The notes below the pieces were generated by a model that saw nothing but the letters and a program-made list of their open reading frames with translations, was not told the DNA's origin and made no database searches. Positions 11,597-20,304 of a stretch of DNA of 34,263 nt are shown here, piece after piece (position 1 is the stretch's first letter; each line of letters starts with the position of its first letter). Origin of the DNA: Solobacterium sp. (GTDB lineage: Bacteria; Bacillota_I; Bacilli_A; Erysipelotrichales; Erysipelotrichaceae); assembly GCA_024680365.1 (NCBI GenBank), contig JAILCN010000216.1, forward strand, positions 1-34,263. Reading direction: 5' to 3'. The translations under genes were made by a program, and so were the position numbers.

Positions 11597-12178
11597 TCAG
11601 AAGTATTCTCTTTTCAGGATCTTTACCGGACTGCCGCAGAGAAGCTCTTCATACTCAGCGGGGCTGTGATGGTCTTTCCAGTACTGTTCCGCGAACCTCG
11701 CAGCACGCCGTACGTCGTTATGTTCCAGCGAGCGGTACGCTTCATCAAAATACCGGATGTCATAAGAGAACAGGCTGTTCTCTTCCGTTTCGCATGCCAG
11801 AAGATACAGATCTTCCTTTTTTATTCCGGCAGGCCGGATCCAGTCTTCTTCTGCCATCCGCACAGCGGTTTCTTTCGTACGGCAGAGGTAAACGCAGTTC
11901 AGACGGCTGACAGAAGGAACTTCCTTCAGCTTCTGCCGCACTGCTTCAAAGACTGCCTCCGCTGCCCACTTGTCCGGATTGGGTGTATCTGCGTATGAGA
12001 CTGTGCTGTAGTCGAAACCGATCAGCTTTGTTCGCTCTGATTCCAGATGACGGATCATCAGCTGTTCAGAGCGCCTCAGGATCTCAAGATACGGGAGCGC
12101 CCTGTTCTTGTTTTTGTGGTGATCCGGAAGGAGAAACTCCCCTTCCGGACGATATATCGTGTAATGCCAGCAGTGCAT
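11597..12178 (-). CDS. Hypothetical protein, DUF2441/ADP-ribosyltransferase-like (tentative), coupled to potD
   Basis: 193-aa ORF; start codon overlaps the potD stop (TGATG). N-terminal HYTIYRPEG and C-terminal AARFAEQYWKDHHSPAEYEELLCGSPVKILKRE resemble DUF2441 from memory. Confidence 0.6.
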   Translation of the reverse strand: MHCWHYTIYRPEGEFLLPDHHKNKNRALPYLEILRRSEQLMIRHLESERTKLIGFDYSTVSYADTPNPDKWAAEAVFEAVRQKLKEVPSVSRLNCVYLCRTKETAVRMAEEDWIRPAGIKKEDLYLLACETEENSLFSYDIRYFDEAYRSLEHNDVRRAARFAEQYWKDHHSPAEYEELLCGSPVKILKREYF

Positions 12179-13278
12179 CAGTTCAGCTTGACTTTGTTCC
12201 AGAGGTCAGACAGCTGTCTCTTCAGTTCCGGGTTGTAGTGGAATACTTCATCCTTGGCGCCGTCTGTACGAGGTGTGTATGCAGGATCCTCGAAGTATGT
12301 GCCGCCTTCGCCGCTGAGCTTCTTGACAACGTTTACGTTGACAGATGTGTATCCGACATAATCAGAGTTTGCATACTGGACTTCTTCACTGAGCATTTCG
12401 TTGATCCACGCGTGTGCCAGGCCTGTGCAGGAAGCGTTTGCCGGAATGACCATTGCGTCGACCCATTTGTTTGTTCCCTGATCCGGTTCGATCCAGCCCA
12501 TGCTTTCATTTTCGGAAAGAACGAAGGCAGCGTCGCCGGAGTACATGATCGCGATGTCCTTGTCGCCGTTGATCATGGAGTCGATGACTTCGTCTGTTAC
12601 ATATGCAGGATCCATTGTGTCGTTCATCTTCTTCAGCCATTCGTACGCTGCTGTGATCTCCTTGGAGTCACCTGTGTTCATGGAATAGCCAAGTGCCTTG
12701 AAAGCGATCATGAAGCCGTCACGCTGGGAATCATAGAAATAGATCTTTCCCTTGTAATCTGTGTTGTGGAGGATATCCCATCCTTCCTTCTTGATGGTTT
12801 CTTCATCAACATTCTCAGTGTTGTAAACAAGACCGACTGTTCCCCAGAAATACGGAGCGGAGTATTCTCCGGTCGGATCATATTCCTTTTCCATGGCCTT
12901 GACGACAGGATCGACGAGCGAGGTGTTCGGGATCTGGCTCTTGTCAAGCTTCTGAAGGAGGTTCTCCTGTGTCAGCTGTTCGATCATATAGTCCGAAGGA
13001 AGCAGAACATCATAGCTGGATCCGCCGAGGAGCTTTGTATACATCATTTCGTTGGAATCGAATGTGTCATAGTTGACCTTGGCGTTGAACTTCTTCTCAA
13101 AGTTGCCGATGACATTTTCGCCGATATATTCGCCCGGTGCGAAAACGTTCAGAACATTGCAGCCGAATTTTTCCTTGGCATCAATTGTTTCTTCCGGCTC
13201 TTTGCCTCCGCTGGAGCATCCTGCCATTGTGATCATGGCAGCTGCGAGAATGATTTTTTCAGATTTTTTCCAGAACAT
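12178..13278 (-). CDS. potD: Spermidine/putrescine ABC transporter substrate-binding lipoprotein
   Basis: Lipobox MITMAGCSS; LNVFAPGEYIGENVIGNFEKKF; YDVLLPSDYMIEQL; GTVGLVYNTENV. Confidence 0.93.
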   Translation of the reverse strand: MFWKKSEKIILAAAMITMAGCSSGGKEPEETIDAKEKFGCNVLNVFAPGEYIGENVIGNFEKKFNAKVNYDTFDSNEMMYTKLLGGSSYDVLLPSDYMIEQLTQENLLQKLDKSQIPNTSLVDPVVKAMEKEYDPTGEYSAPYFWGTVGLVYNTENVDEETIKKEGWDILHNTDYKGKIYFYDSQRDGFMIAFKALGYSMNTGDSKEITAAYEWLKKMNDTMDPAYVTDEVIDSMINGDKDIAIMYSGDAAFVLSENESMGWIEPDQGTNKWVDAMVIPANASCTGLAHAWINEMLSEEVQYANSDYVGYTSVNVNVVKKLSGEGGTYFEDPAYTPRTDGAKDEVFHYNPELKRQLSDLWNKVKLN

Positions 13279-14071
13279 TGTTTTTTTCCTTCCTTCTTTC
13301 TTTGATCACAGGTACGACATTCACGATGATCAGTACCGCGGTAACAACATAGACAATGATTGCGGACAGCGCGTTGATCGTCGGATTGACTCTCTTGACG
13401 CTGGAGTAGACATAGATCGAGATGTTGGATACGCCCGGGCCGGTCGTGAACATGGAGATGACGAAGTCATCGAATGACATGGAGAACGCGACCAGTGCGC
13501 CGGCGACGATCCCCTCTTTGATCTGGGGAATGATGACCTTGGTCATTGCCTGCAGAGGCGTGCAGCCAAGATCGAGCGCCGCTTCGGCGATGTTGGGATC
13601 AAGACGTCTCAGACGCGGCATGACCGAGAGGATCACATACGGGATACAGAAGGCAATGTGTGCCATCAGCATCGTATAGAAGCCGGTCCTGATGCGCAGA
13701 GATGTGAAGAACAGCATGAATCCGATCGCTGTGACGATCTCCGGATTCAGCATCGGCAGGTTGTTGACCTGGTTGACGAATTCGCGCACGACGCGGTTGG
13801 ACTTGGAAAGACCGATCGCTGTGATCGTTCCGACGATCGTGGATACGATCGTAGCGATGACCGCGCAGAGCACTGTATACCAGATCGCTTCCATGATCGA
13901 ACGGTTGGCGAACATGGATTCATACCACTTCAGGGAGAAGCCGGTAAAGTGTGAAAGCGATTTGGATGCGTTGAAGCTGAAGAACACGACGTAGATGATC
14001 GGCACATAGAAGAATGCCAGCATGACCGCGAGCCAGATCTTGCTGAATAAACTGCTTTTATTCTTTTCCAT
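13259..14071 (-). CDS. potC: Spermidine/putrescine ABC transporter permease
   Basis: EAALDLGCTPLQAMTKVIIPQIKEGIVAGALVAFSMSFDDFVISMF, a PotC permease EAA motif. Confidence 0.93.
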   Translation of the reverse strand: MEKNKSSLFSKIWLAVMLAFFYVPIIYVVFFSFNASKSLSHFTGFSLKWYESMFANRSIMEAIWYTVLCAVIATIVSTIVGTITAIGLSKSNRVVREFVNQVNNLPMLNPEIVTAIGFMLFFTSLRIRTGFYTMLMAHIAFCIPYVILSVMPRLRRLDPNIAEAALDLGCTPLQAMTKVIIPQIKEGIVAGALVAFSMSFDDFVISMFTTGPGVSNISIYVYSSVKRVNPTINALSAIIVYVVTAVLIIVNVVPVIKERRKEKNNVLEKI

Positions 14072-14853
14072 CAGTCTGCCTCCTTCGGTTCCCGGTCAAG
14101 CTTTCTCGTGATATACATGGAGATCAGGATAATGATCGCCATGATCAGGGAGATCGCCGATCCGAAGTTCCAGTCACCGGTTGAAACGAAATAATCTTCG
14201 ATCAGGTTACCGATCAGAACATACTGGCCGCCGCCGAGCAGCTTCGGGATAAAGAAGCTTGATACCGCCGGCAGGAAGACGAGCGTGATCCCGGAGACGA
14301 CGCCGGACAGCGACAGCGGCAGCGTTACCTTGAGGAATGTCTGCACGTCGTTGGCGCCGAGGTCGTTCGCGGCAATCAGAAGATTCTTGTCGATCTTGGA
14401 TAATGACGTATAGATCTGCAGGATCATGAACGGCAGGAAGTTGTACACCATGCCGACGTAGACATTGAACTCACCGGATGTGCCGAGCCAGGTCAGGATG
14501 CCCTTCCATGCGTAGGTGCGCACGAGCATGTTGATCCAGGTCGGCAGCGTCATCAGAAGCACCATCAGCGCGGCGCTGTTGGGCTTCTGGGAAGCCATGA
14601 AGTATGCGGTCGGATAGCCGACGGCGATGCAGAACACTGTCGTCACAAATGCCATCTTCAGACTCCGCCAGAGAACGCCGGGGAAGATATCGTCGCTCAG
14701 AAAGCGGAGGAAGTTGTTCAGTGTGAACTGCAGCGTCAGGACATCATTGCCCTTTACCGTAAACGCGTAGAGAACGATCATCAGCATCGGAACAATGATC
14801 ATGATGATCATCCACAGCACGTACGGATAGATGAGTTTGCTGAAGTTCTTCAT
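14071..14853 (-). CDS. potB: Spermidine/putrescine ABC transporter permease
   Basis: LIAANDLGANDVQTFLKVTLPLSLSGVVSGITLVFLPAVSSFFIPKLLGG, a PotB permease motif. Confidence 0.93.
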   Translation of the reverse strand: MKNFSKLIYPYVLWMIIMIIVPMLMIVLYAFTVKGNDVLTLQFTLNNFLRFLSDDIFPGVLWRSLKMAFVTTVFCIAVGYPTAYFMASQKPNSAALMVLLMTLPTWINMLVRTYAWKGILTWLGTSGEFNVYVGMVYNFLPFMILQIYTSLSKIDKNLLIAANDLGANDVQTFLKVTLPLSLSGVVSGITLVFLPAVSSFFIPKLLGGGQYVLIGNLIEDYFVSTGDWNFGSAISLIMAIIILISMYITRKLDREPKEAD

Positions 14854-14857
14854 CTCA

Positions 14858-16423
14858 TTACACCATCTTTCTCATGACATGAATGTCTTCCGGATTCCAA
14901 TGCAGACCGATCCGTTCGCCTTCTTCGATCCTGTCAGTTGTTTCCAGCTTGATCTCGCGTCCCTGCGTGGAGAATGTGACCGGATAGTCACCTTCCGTGA
15001 TGTTCTCATCATCGAAGTCATATTTGACATCCCAGATCTCTACTCTGGAATTGTCTTCCATATTCCATGCATAGGCATCCGCCCATCTGATCAGATCTGT
15101 ATCCAGCGCAAGTGATTCTCTGATCTCATCCGCTGTCTTGTAGAAATCGAATGCCTGGATGCCTTCCTCGTTGGAAGCGTCCTCAACGACTGCCGGCTTG
15201 ACGACATTGATGTTGATGCGGATCATCGTACCCTTGTCTGTCGAGAATGTGCACGGATAGGTGCCGACTTCCGGCTTCAGGCTGTATTCGATCTTTGTCA
15301 GCGACACATCTTCATCAGCTGTATTCCAAGCCTGGGCGTTGGCACGGGCAATGACTTCGGTATCCGTCAGTGTTTCAACGTCCTCAAGGTCCATATAGAA
15401 CGATGATGCGCTGATCTTCTCTCCTGCTTCAGGATTTTCGATATCATGGCTCTTTGTGACATGCATCGTAACCGTCTTGGATGTACCGGAGCTTGTTTCA
15501 ACGATGACTTCGTAATGAACGCCCTTGAAGAGAACAGATTTCACTTCGCCGTTGAGCAGTCCCTTGTTTCTCGGAACGATATCAACGTCTTCCGGACGGA
15601 TCACGATATCGACCGGTTCATTCTCGTGGAAGCCCTTGTCAGCGCAGACATAATCCACGTCATCGAAGGAGACCAGGTTGTCTTTCTTCATGATTCCGTC
15701 AATGATATTGGAATCGCCGATGAATCTTGCGCAGTATTCATTGACAGGTTCATTGTATACGTCCGTCGGCGAACCGATCTGTTCGATCTCGCCGTCTTTC
15801 ATGATGACGATCTTGTCAGACATCGTCAGCGCTTCTTCCTGGTCGTGGGTAACAAAGATGAAGGTGATGCCGACTTCACGCTGGATCTCTTTCAGTTCCA
15901 GCTGCATTTCTTTTCTCAGGTTCTTGTCAAGAGCGGACAGGGATTCATCAAGCAGAAGGACCTTCGGCTCGTTGACCAGCGCTCTGGCAATGGCGACACG
16001 CTGCTGCTGGCCGCCGGACATCTTGGTAACGTCGCGGTGTTCAAAGCCTTCCAGACCGACAAGTGAGATCATTCTGCTGACCTTCTGGTCAATGATGTCT
16101 TTCGGCATCTTCTTGATCTTCAGACCGAACGCGATGTTGTCGTAAACATCGAGATGCGGGAACAGTGCGTAATGCTGGAACACCGTGTTGACATCCCTCT
16201 TGTACGCGGGAACGGTCGCGATATCCTCGCCGTCCATAATGACATGGCCTTCTGTCGGCTCCAGGAAGCCGGCAATGATCCTCAGCAGTGTGGTCTTACC
16301 GCAGCCGGAGGGTCCGAGAAGCGTAACAAATTCATTTTCATAGATGTCCAGAGAGATCCCCTTCAGGACGACCTGTTTGTCAAATGTCTTGACAACGTTT
16401 TTTACTTCAATCAGCTTTCTCAT
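14858..16423 (-). CDS. potA: Spermidine/putrescine ABC transporter ATPase with an inserted two-repeat module in the TOBE region
   Basis: Walker [10 protein letters not shown], signature MSGGQQQR, Walker [13 protein letters not shown]. At 521 aa it is longer than usual PotA. Confidence 0.93.
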
Positions 16424-16438
16424 TTTTACTCTCCCTTA

Positions 16439-16981
16439 TCAGAAAACCGGCGGAGTGCTGATCCACAGCACCGAAGCCTTTGCGGTACCTTTGTTGACCA
16501 GGTAATGGGCTTCATTACCACGGATGTAGAACGTCTCTCCTTTTCGTACCGTTACCCCTTTTTTATCTGCGGTATTCACGAGACTGATGCGGCCGTTCAT
16601 CACATAGCCGAACTCTTCCCCTTCATGCGGTTCGATCTCCCGCGATGCTCCGCCCGGTTCAAGTTCCAGGATGATCGGTTCCATCCTGTTCTTCTGGGCA
16701 TTGGGGACGATCCAGCGGATCGTGAAATCATCCTGCTCATCCACGAAGATGTCTTCTGCTGTAAACACGACCTTTTCCGTGCTCACTTCGGCGAAGAACC
16801 CGGACATCGTCACTCCCAGCGCTTCGGCAATATCCTCAAGCGTCTGCAGTGACGGCGATGTGAGATTTCTTTCCAGCTGGGAAAGGAATCCTTTTGTCAG
16901 TTCCGTTCTGGAAGCAAGTTCTTCCAGCGTCAGGCCGTTCTGGACCCGCAGCTGTCTGATTCTGTGACCGATGTCAAACAT
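16439..16981 (-). CDS. XRE-family HTH regulator with C-terminal cupin domain (PuuR-like)
   Basis: IRQLRVQNGLTLEELASRTELTKGFLSQLERNLTSPSLQTLEDIAEALG plus cupin EPHEGEEFGYVMNGRISL; first gene ahead of potABCD. Confidence 0.92.
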   Translation of the reverse strand: MFDIGHRIRQLRVQNGLTLEELASRTELTKGFLSQLERNLTSPSLQTLEDIAEALGVTMSGFFAEVSTEKVVFTAEDIFVDEQDDFTIRWIVPNAQKNRMEPIILELEPGGASREIEPHEGEEFGYVMNGRISLVNTADKKGVTVRKGETFYIRGNEAHYLVNKGTAKASVLWISTPPVF

Positions 16982-19260: not shown

Positions 19261-20268
<1,008 letters not shown>

Positions 20269-20270
20269 AA

Positions 20271-20289
20271 AAACCGGAATCATCCGGTT
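20271..20289 (-). terminator. Minus-strand terminator of the HAD/GtrA operon, reading into the pta stop region
   Basis: Minus strand AACCGGA-TGAT-TCCGGTT-TTTTT. Confidence 0.7.
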
Positions 20290-20304
20290 CAAACGAAACA
20301 TCTC

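Follow-up and report, generated by a model that had tools for sequence, protein, structure and literature searches.

A PotA transporter ATPase of Solobacterium sp. with an inserted domain pair of apparent adhesin ancestry

Introduction

The closest described counterpart of the locus studied here is the Escherichia coli importer PotABC, in which spermidine lowers the ATPase activity and the regulatory domain rotates by ~15 degrees during the cycle (PMC11414716). The authors of that work suggested that spermidine from the cytosol binds to the regulatory domain through its negative charge and so locks the transporter in the inhibited state, and noted that this proposal needs further investigation (PMC11414716). 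Trans-inhibition is established for the importers MetNI and ModABC, where extra domains of the ATPase subunits sense the substrate and inhibit (PMC10710835), and in the ATPase Wzt an Ig-like sandwich recognises the substrate, O-antigen, in the cytosol (PMC6286764).

Here we describe a PotA protein encoded in the window, the stretch of 34,263 nucleotides of Solobacterium sp. DNA that was analysed as a whole. E. coli PotA (PDB 8ZX1 and 8Y5F-I) aligns with it through the nucleotide-binding domain (NBD) and the TOBE domain up to the point of an insert, and both proteins belong to the same type of potABCD operon; however, E. coli PotA (378 residues) is without inserted domains, unlike the 521-residue window protein. 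As judged from its sequence, the latter appears to be an ordinary PotA into which a pair of domains with adhesin ancestry, so far unannotated, has been inserted. We regard the anatomy and origin of this insert as near certain. A literature search for an Ig-like insert in PotA found nothing relevant.

Results

The long-form potA gene (14858..16423, minus strand) is predicted to encode the ATPase of an ABC importer for spermidine and putrescine. Its product matches PF00005 (ABC_tran) with 134 bits, and the Walker A, signature and Walker B motifs are all present, while the match to PF08402 (TOBE_2; 48.5 bits, cut-off 21) is interrupted by the insert. The protein scores 379 bits against TIGR01187 (potA), above the curated cut-off of 355.6, and stays below the cut-offs of the equivalogs NF043075 (544.3 of 550) and NF006987. 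E. coli PotA is both its closest solved relative by sequence and the best structural match of its predicted structure. The operon, read from the minus strand throughout, has the order regulator-potA-potB-potC-potD: an XRE/cupin-type regulator, assigned by reading its sequence (16439..16981), lies upstream of potA and is followed on the other side by the permease genes potB (14071..14853) and potC (13259..14071), whose products are of normal length (260 and 270 residues, respectively), and by potD (12178..13278), which encodes a substrate-binding lipoprotein of 366 residues. This neighbourhood is conserved, as the same order surrounds long and short forms of PotA alike (potD lies beyond the short-form loci compared), with potB adjoining potA and the regulator kept in both cases. 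Elsewhere in the window, a phosphotransacetylase-like gene on the plus strand (19264-20268) is overlapped on the minus strand by an open reading frame of 344 codons (19267-20301), which looks like a shadow frame and not like a gene of its own.

The NBD (approximately residues 1-235) and the first half of the TOBE/regulatory domain (to residue 310) are encoded at 15494..16423 (minus strand), as delineated by alignment with E. coli PotA (8zx1, 8y5f) and short orthologues, and alignment with the short orthologues places the second half of the TOBE domain (residues 488-521) at 14861..14962 (minus strand). Ten short orthologues from the same order are colinear with the window protein to residue 310 and again from the sequence GREIKL (residue 488) onwards, so that the split of the TOBE domain proposed in the initial annotation agrees with the alignment; these proteins read ...FKGVHYEIMVETSE-RMYKVHTTD... 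with nothing in between. The 177 additional residues (residues 311-487; 14963..15493, minus strand), which are missing from the short orthologues, form a strongly acidic module with a net charge of -23. The initial annotation had set its extent at 14942-15493, of which the upper bound is correct and the lower bound, which should be 14963, reaches seven residues into the resumed TOBE domain. The insert is in frame in more than 200 independent genomes, which rules out an assembly or frameshift artefact. Two side observations concern individual genomes. In one (G222, C30:15681-16240; L136 and L143), the long PotA frame is broken between the two halves of the insert into two overlapping frames, which points to decay of the copy or to a sequencing error, and another genome (G110) holds two insert-bearing long PotA copies (C54:40923-41486 and C56:35495-36058).

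The insert consists of two repeat units, R1 (approximately residues 313-399; 15227..15487, minus strand) and R2 (approximately residues 400-487; 14963..15226, minus strand). Comparison of their profiles with hhalign gives a probability of 99.1% and an E-value of 1.4e-18, with 31% identity over 83 columns from end to end, and this profile-profile match rules out a chance likeness. The pair of homologous repeats that had been claimed is thus real, though not in the register given for it, as each unit begins about 27 residues earlier than stated. No Pfam or NCBIfam model scores above its cut-off on the insert, including those of the Pfam Big families, and a search of PDB sequences with the insert returned no match over the cut-off.

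AlphaFold models of 41 inserts have a mean pLDDT of 85.8 and consist of two beta domains of similar build, one after the other, with one or two short helices in each; the pTM of 0.63 leaves the placement of the domains uncertain. Two of the best Foldseek matches have a high probability (0.98): 2KPN, a Big_3 Ig-like domain (E 0.016, 18% identity), and 7JRL, the INT/CBM region of ZmpB. Foldseek returned no PDB match at an E-value of 0.001 or better, so that an Ig-like fold is likely, short of proof. The Ig modules reported initially therefore stand as two beta domains for which Big_3 and ZmpB are the likeliest matches, none of them passing the E-value threshold. The Big_3 domain appears to resemble the insert in fold, yet the insert scores below the cut-off of every Pfam Big model.

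In searches with the insert profile, the matches other than PotA are repeats within large frames of 780-5054 residues. The best match to a surface protein reaches 69.7 bits and an E-value of 2.3e-19 (per genome, G308), and the alignments are colinear across the whole unit, for example IITRANAKAWN...GAYSVTFSTDAGT. Among the relatives whose ends were read, signal peptides are present where the N terminus was covered, and the C termini are mostly of the LPXTG type (LPSTG, LPITG). Since the units match surface repeats colinearly with per-genome E-values down to 2e-19, their resemblance to adhesins reflects homology; the related repeats belong to surface proteins of the same class that are exported and mostly carry an LPXTG anchor. 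The adhesin-type character and the location in a cytoplasmic ABC ATPase, both noted at the outset, are upheld, the units sitting within the PotA regulatory domain. The LPXTG repeat proteins of Erysipelotrichales and other Bacilli share with PotA the unit pattern A-x-A-W-N ... G-x-Y-x-V-T-F-x-T-x-x-G-T; they are exported, vary in copy number and are without the acidic and aromatic set specific to R2, whereas PotA is cytosolic and has two units. A reading of the PotA sequence for a signal peptide, a membrane segment or an LPXTG motif revealed none. As PotA shares the repeat homology of the surface-protein family, and its export signal and LPXTG-type anchor were not seen, we consider it a bearer of a repeat relative and not a surface protein. 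Of the two units, R1 is the closer to the surface-protein repeats. In a tree of the repeats over 88 columns, R1 forms one group and R2 another. The tree does not resolve how these groups connect to the surface repeats, and it does not separate a duplication that made R1 and R2 sisters from the arrival of a ready-made pair.

Some repeat-bearing proteins have other architectures. In genus g41 of the family (G166 and G126), four small proteins of 223-232 residues (L137, L139, L147 and L149), predicted to be exported, each hold a single unit between an apparent signal peptide and a C-terminal transmembrane segment; the genomes of this genus hold several repeat-bearing genes together with a short PotA, and they match the insert profile solely via surface-type proteins. 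A frame of 481 residues (L144; G189, C1:592009-592278) is unlike the LPXTG proteins: its N-terminal part is long and hydrophilic, and it has one transmembrane segment, one repeat unit and a coiled-coil-like tail.

The insert profile is matched in 219 of the 295 genomes sampled from the order Erysipelotrichales, covering 55 of the 79 genera sampled. The possibility, raised initially, that the insert would prove widespread and already annotated is thus borne out by half: it is widespread in this one order, yet has no Pfam or NCBIfam model. Contig-edge cases and genus g41 aside, nearly all matches are frames of PotA size (~515-577 residues) with both units. Named carriers include metagenome-assembled genomes (MAGs) labelled Solobacterium, Lactimicrobium massiliense, Anaerorhabdus furcosa, Bulleidia extructa and Merdibacter massiliensis, and some MAGs labelled Lachnospiraceae carry the insert as well. 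The class and phylum samples from beyond this order yielded no frame of PotA size with both units, and nearly all matches there lie in long surface-type frames. Short PotAs occur in several genera of the family and in half of a second family. Every PotA found in the outgroups is short as well.

In a maximum likelihood tree built from the PotA core with the insert removed, all 40 long forms fall into one clade (support 93/95), and the distribution requires a single change of state, as do 93% of the bootstrap trees. Because a tree made without the insert unites the long forms with one change, we conclude that the insert was gained once and then inherited. An ancestral long form followed by losses is not supported, since the tested outgroup PotAs are all short and the tree needs only one change. 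The second family (f2; L031-L050) has both long and short PotAs, and its long forms nest within the clade of the window's family, away from its own short forms; this placement suggests that potA may have been transferred or replaced between the families, possibly horizontally. Plasmid and phage collections searched for a carrier of the insert gave no match. The GC content of the insert equals that of the rest of potA, so there is no sign of recent foreign origin.

Across 30 sequences from the same genus, pN/pS is lowest in the NBD (0.093), followed by the TOBE domain (0.148), R2 (0.164) and R1 (0.268). These values are meaningful only against each other, as pS is near saturation. R2 is constrained about as strongly as its host TOBE domain, and the insert is kept by purifying selection. 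Seven residues of R2 (E436, S437, T442, D443, W447, Y468 and F470) are invariant in PotA and absent from the surface repeats, and D441, D469 and D471 are 96-99% conserved; in comparison with 68 surface repeats, L440, G488 and R489 are further invariant or near-invariant residues acquired by R2. The net charge of the insert ranges from -17 to -25 per PotA subunit. Per 100 residues, R1 carries -11.9 and R2 -14.2, compared with -7.6 +/- 3.8 for the surface repeats; the acidity is only partly specific to the insert, because the surface repeats are acidic too, and the TOBE domains of short PotAs are equally acidic per residue. The cores of long and short PotAs show one consistent difference, F230Y. 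As this is the only one, the module appears to have been grafted with little adjustment of the host, and no co-adapted docking surface is visible.

Discussion

Several cytosolic transporter ATPases provide points of comparison for the PotA insert. The C-terminal carbohydrate-binding domain of Wzt is an Ig-like beta-sandwich on a cytosolic ABC ATPase (PMC6286764), but it is a single, C-terminal, glycan-binding domain on an exporter, whereas the insert is a pair inside the TOBE domain of an importer. The C2 domain of MetN and the regulatory domain of ModC are also extra domains on importer ATPases, and they sense substrate and inhibit (PMC10710835); their folds differ from that of the insert, and they are added C-terminally and not within the TOBE hairpin. 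The insert would be an added regulatory module, most likely one that responds to cations or polyamines; the ligand-sensing or docking role suggested initially is plausible.

A tandem pair of repeats of probable Ig-like type, from the family found in cell-wall-anchored surface proteins of this class, was inserted once into a TOBE hairpin of PotA. The event took place in an ancestor belonging to Erysipelotrichales, and the pair has since been retained at exactly two units. We tentatively favour a scheme in which the insert acts in the cytosol as an accessory regulatory module on the PotA dimer; polyamine cations, or a state of the transporter that depends on polyamines, would be bound by its acidic, aromatic-rich R2 unit, and binding would adjust the ATPase activity, extending the spermidine trans-inhibition reported for E. 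coli PotABC. That R2 binds a polyamine or a polyamine-dependent state and so tunes the ATPase is a possibility to which we give somewhat less than even weight. The insertion point within the regulatory domain, the single origin and wide retention of both units, the constraint on R2, the strong acidity, the acidic and aromatic residues found only in PotA and the precedents of E. coli PotABC, MetNI and ModABC all count in its favour. Against it stand the fact that short PotAs manage without the insert, the acidity shared with the surface repeats, the near-unchanged core and the uncertain placement of the domains in the models. The more specific proposal, that an adhesin-type pair was domesticated as a cytosolic allosteric polyamine sensor, giving a new trans-inhibition domain from an extracellular scaffold, is more doubtful.

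Two other readings are serious rivals to a regulatory module. The insert may be a structural brace that packs between the PotA subunits or on the hinge between NBD and TOBE domain, stabilising the dimer or limiting NBD opening with no ligand involved. The regulatory domains of MalK-type ATPases dimerise, PotA always has two units whereas the surface proteins vary in copy number, and F230Y, the only fixed core difference, is close to the boundary between the NBD and the regulatory domain. A brace nevertheless fits poorly with a core that has almost no co-adapted residues and with the unusual acidity of the R2 sites conserved only in PotA, and we judge it less likely than a regulatory module. 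Slightly less probable again is a docking platform that recruits a cytosolic protein, such as a regulator, an enzyme of polyamine metabolism or a second-messenger protein, to the importer. Here the binding of EIIAGlc and MalT to MalK offers a model. The R2 motif set is strongly conserved, and Ig-like modules are general binding scaffolds, as the recognition of O-antigen by the Ig-like domain of Wzt illustrates (PMC6286764); however, no linked partner gene was found, and the operon is identical for the long and short forms.

The near-constancy of the core could also mean that the insert is a neutral passenger, left by a tolerated recombination accident, but its retention over dozens of genera, for which the tree shows a single gain and no later loss, together with an R2 unit as constrained as the TOBE domain, already disfavours this reading and makes it improbable. 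Although the homologous repeats are anchored to the cell wall, a moonlighting role in which some of the PotA protein reaches the cell exterior and the Ig pair serves there as an adhesin is very hard to credit, given that a reading of the sequence showed neither a signal peptide nor a membrane segment nor an LPXTG motif and that the gene sits in a complete potABCD operon.

The insert documents a clear case of a cell-surface repeat family that entered, in one event, the regulatory domain of a transporter ATPase in the cytosol. Selection has kept it there across a large group of bacteria, mainly from gut and rumen, and it constitutes a domain family for which Pfam and NCBIfam hold no model. The natural contrast between long and short PotAs bears on how the regulatory domain controls polyamine uptake. 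If the insert does act as a sensor, it would mean that importers can gain new trans-inhibition modules through domain insertion.
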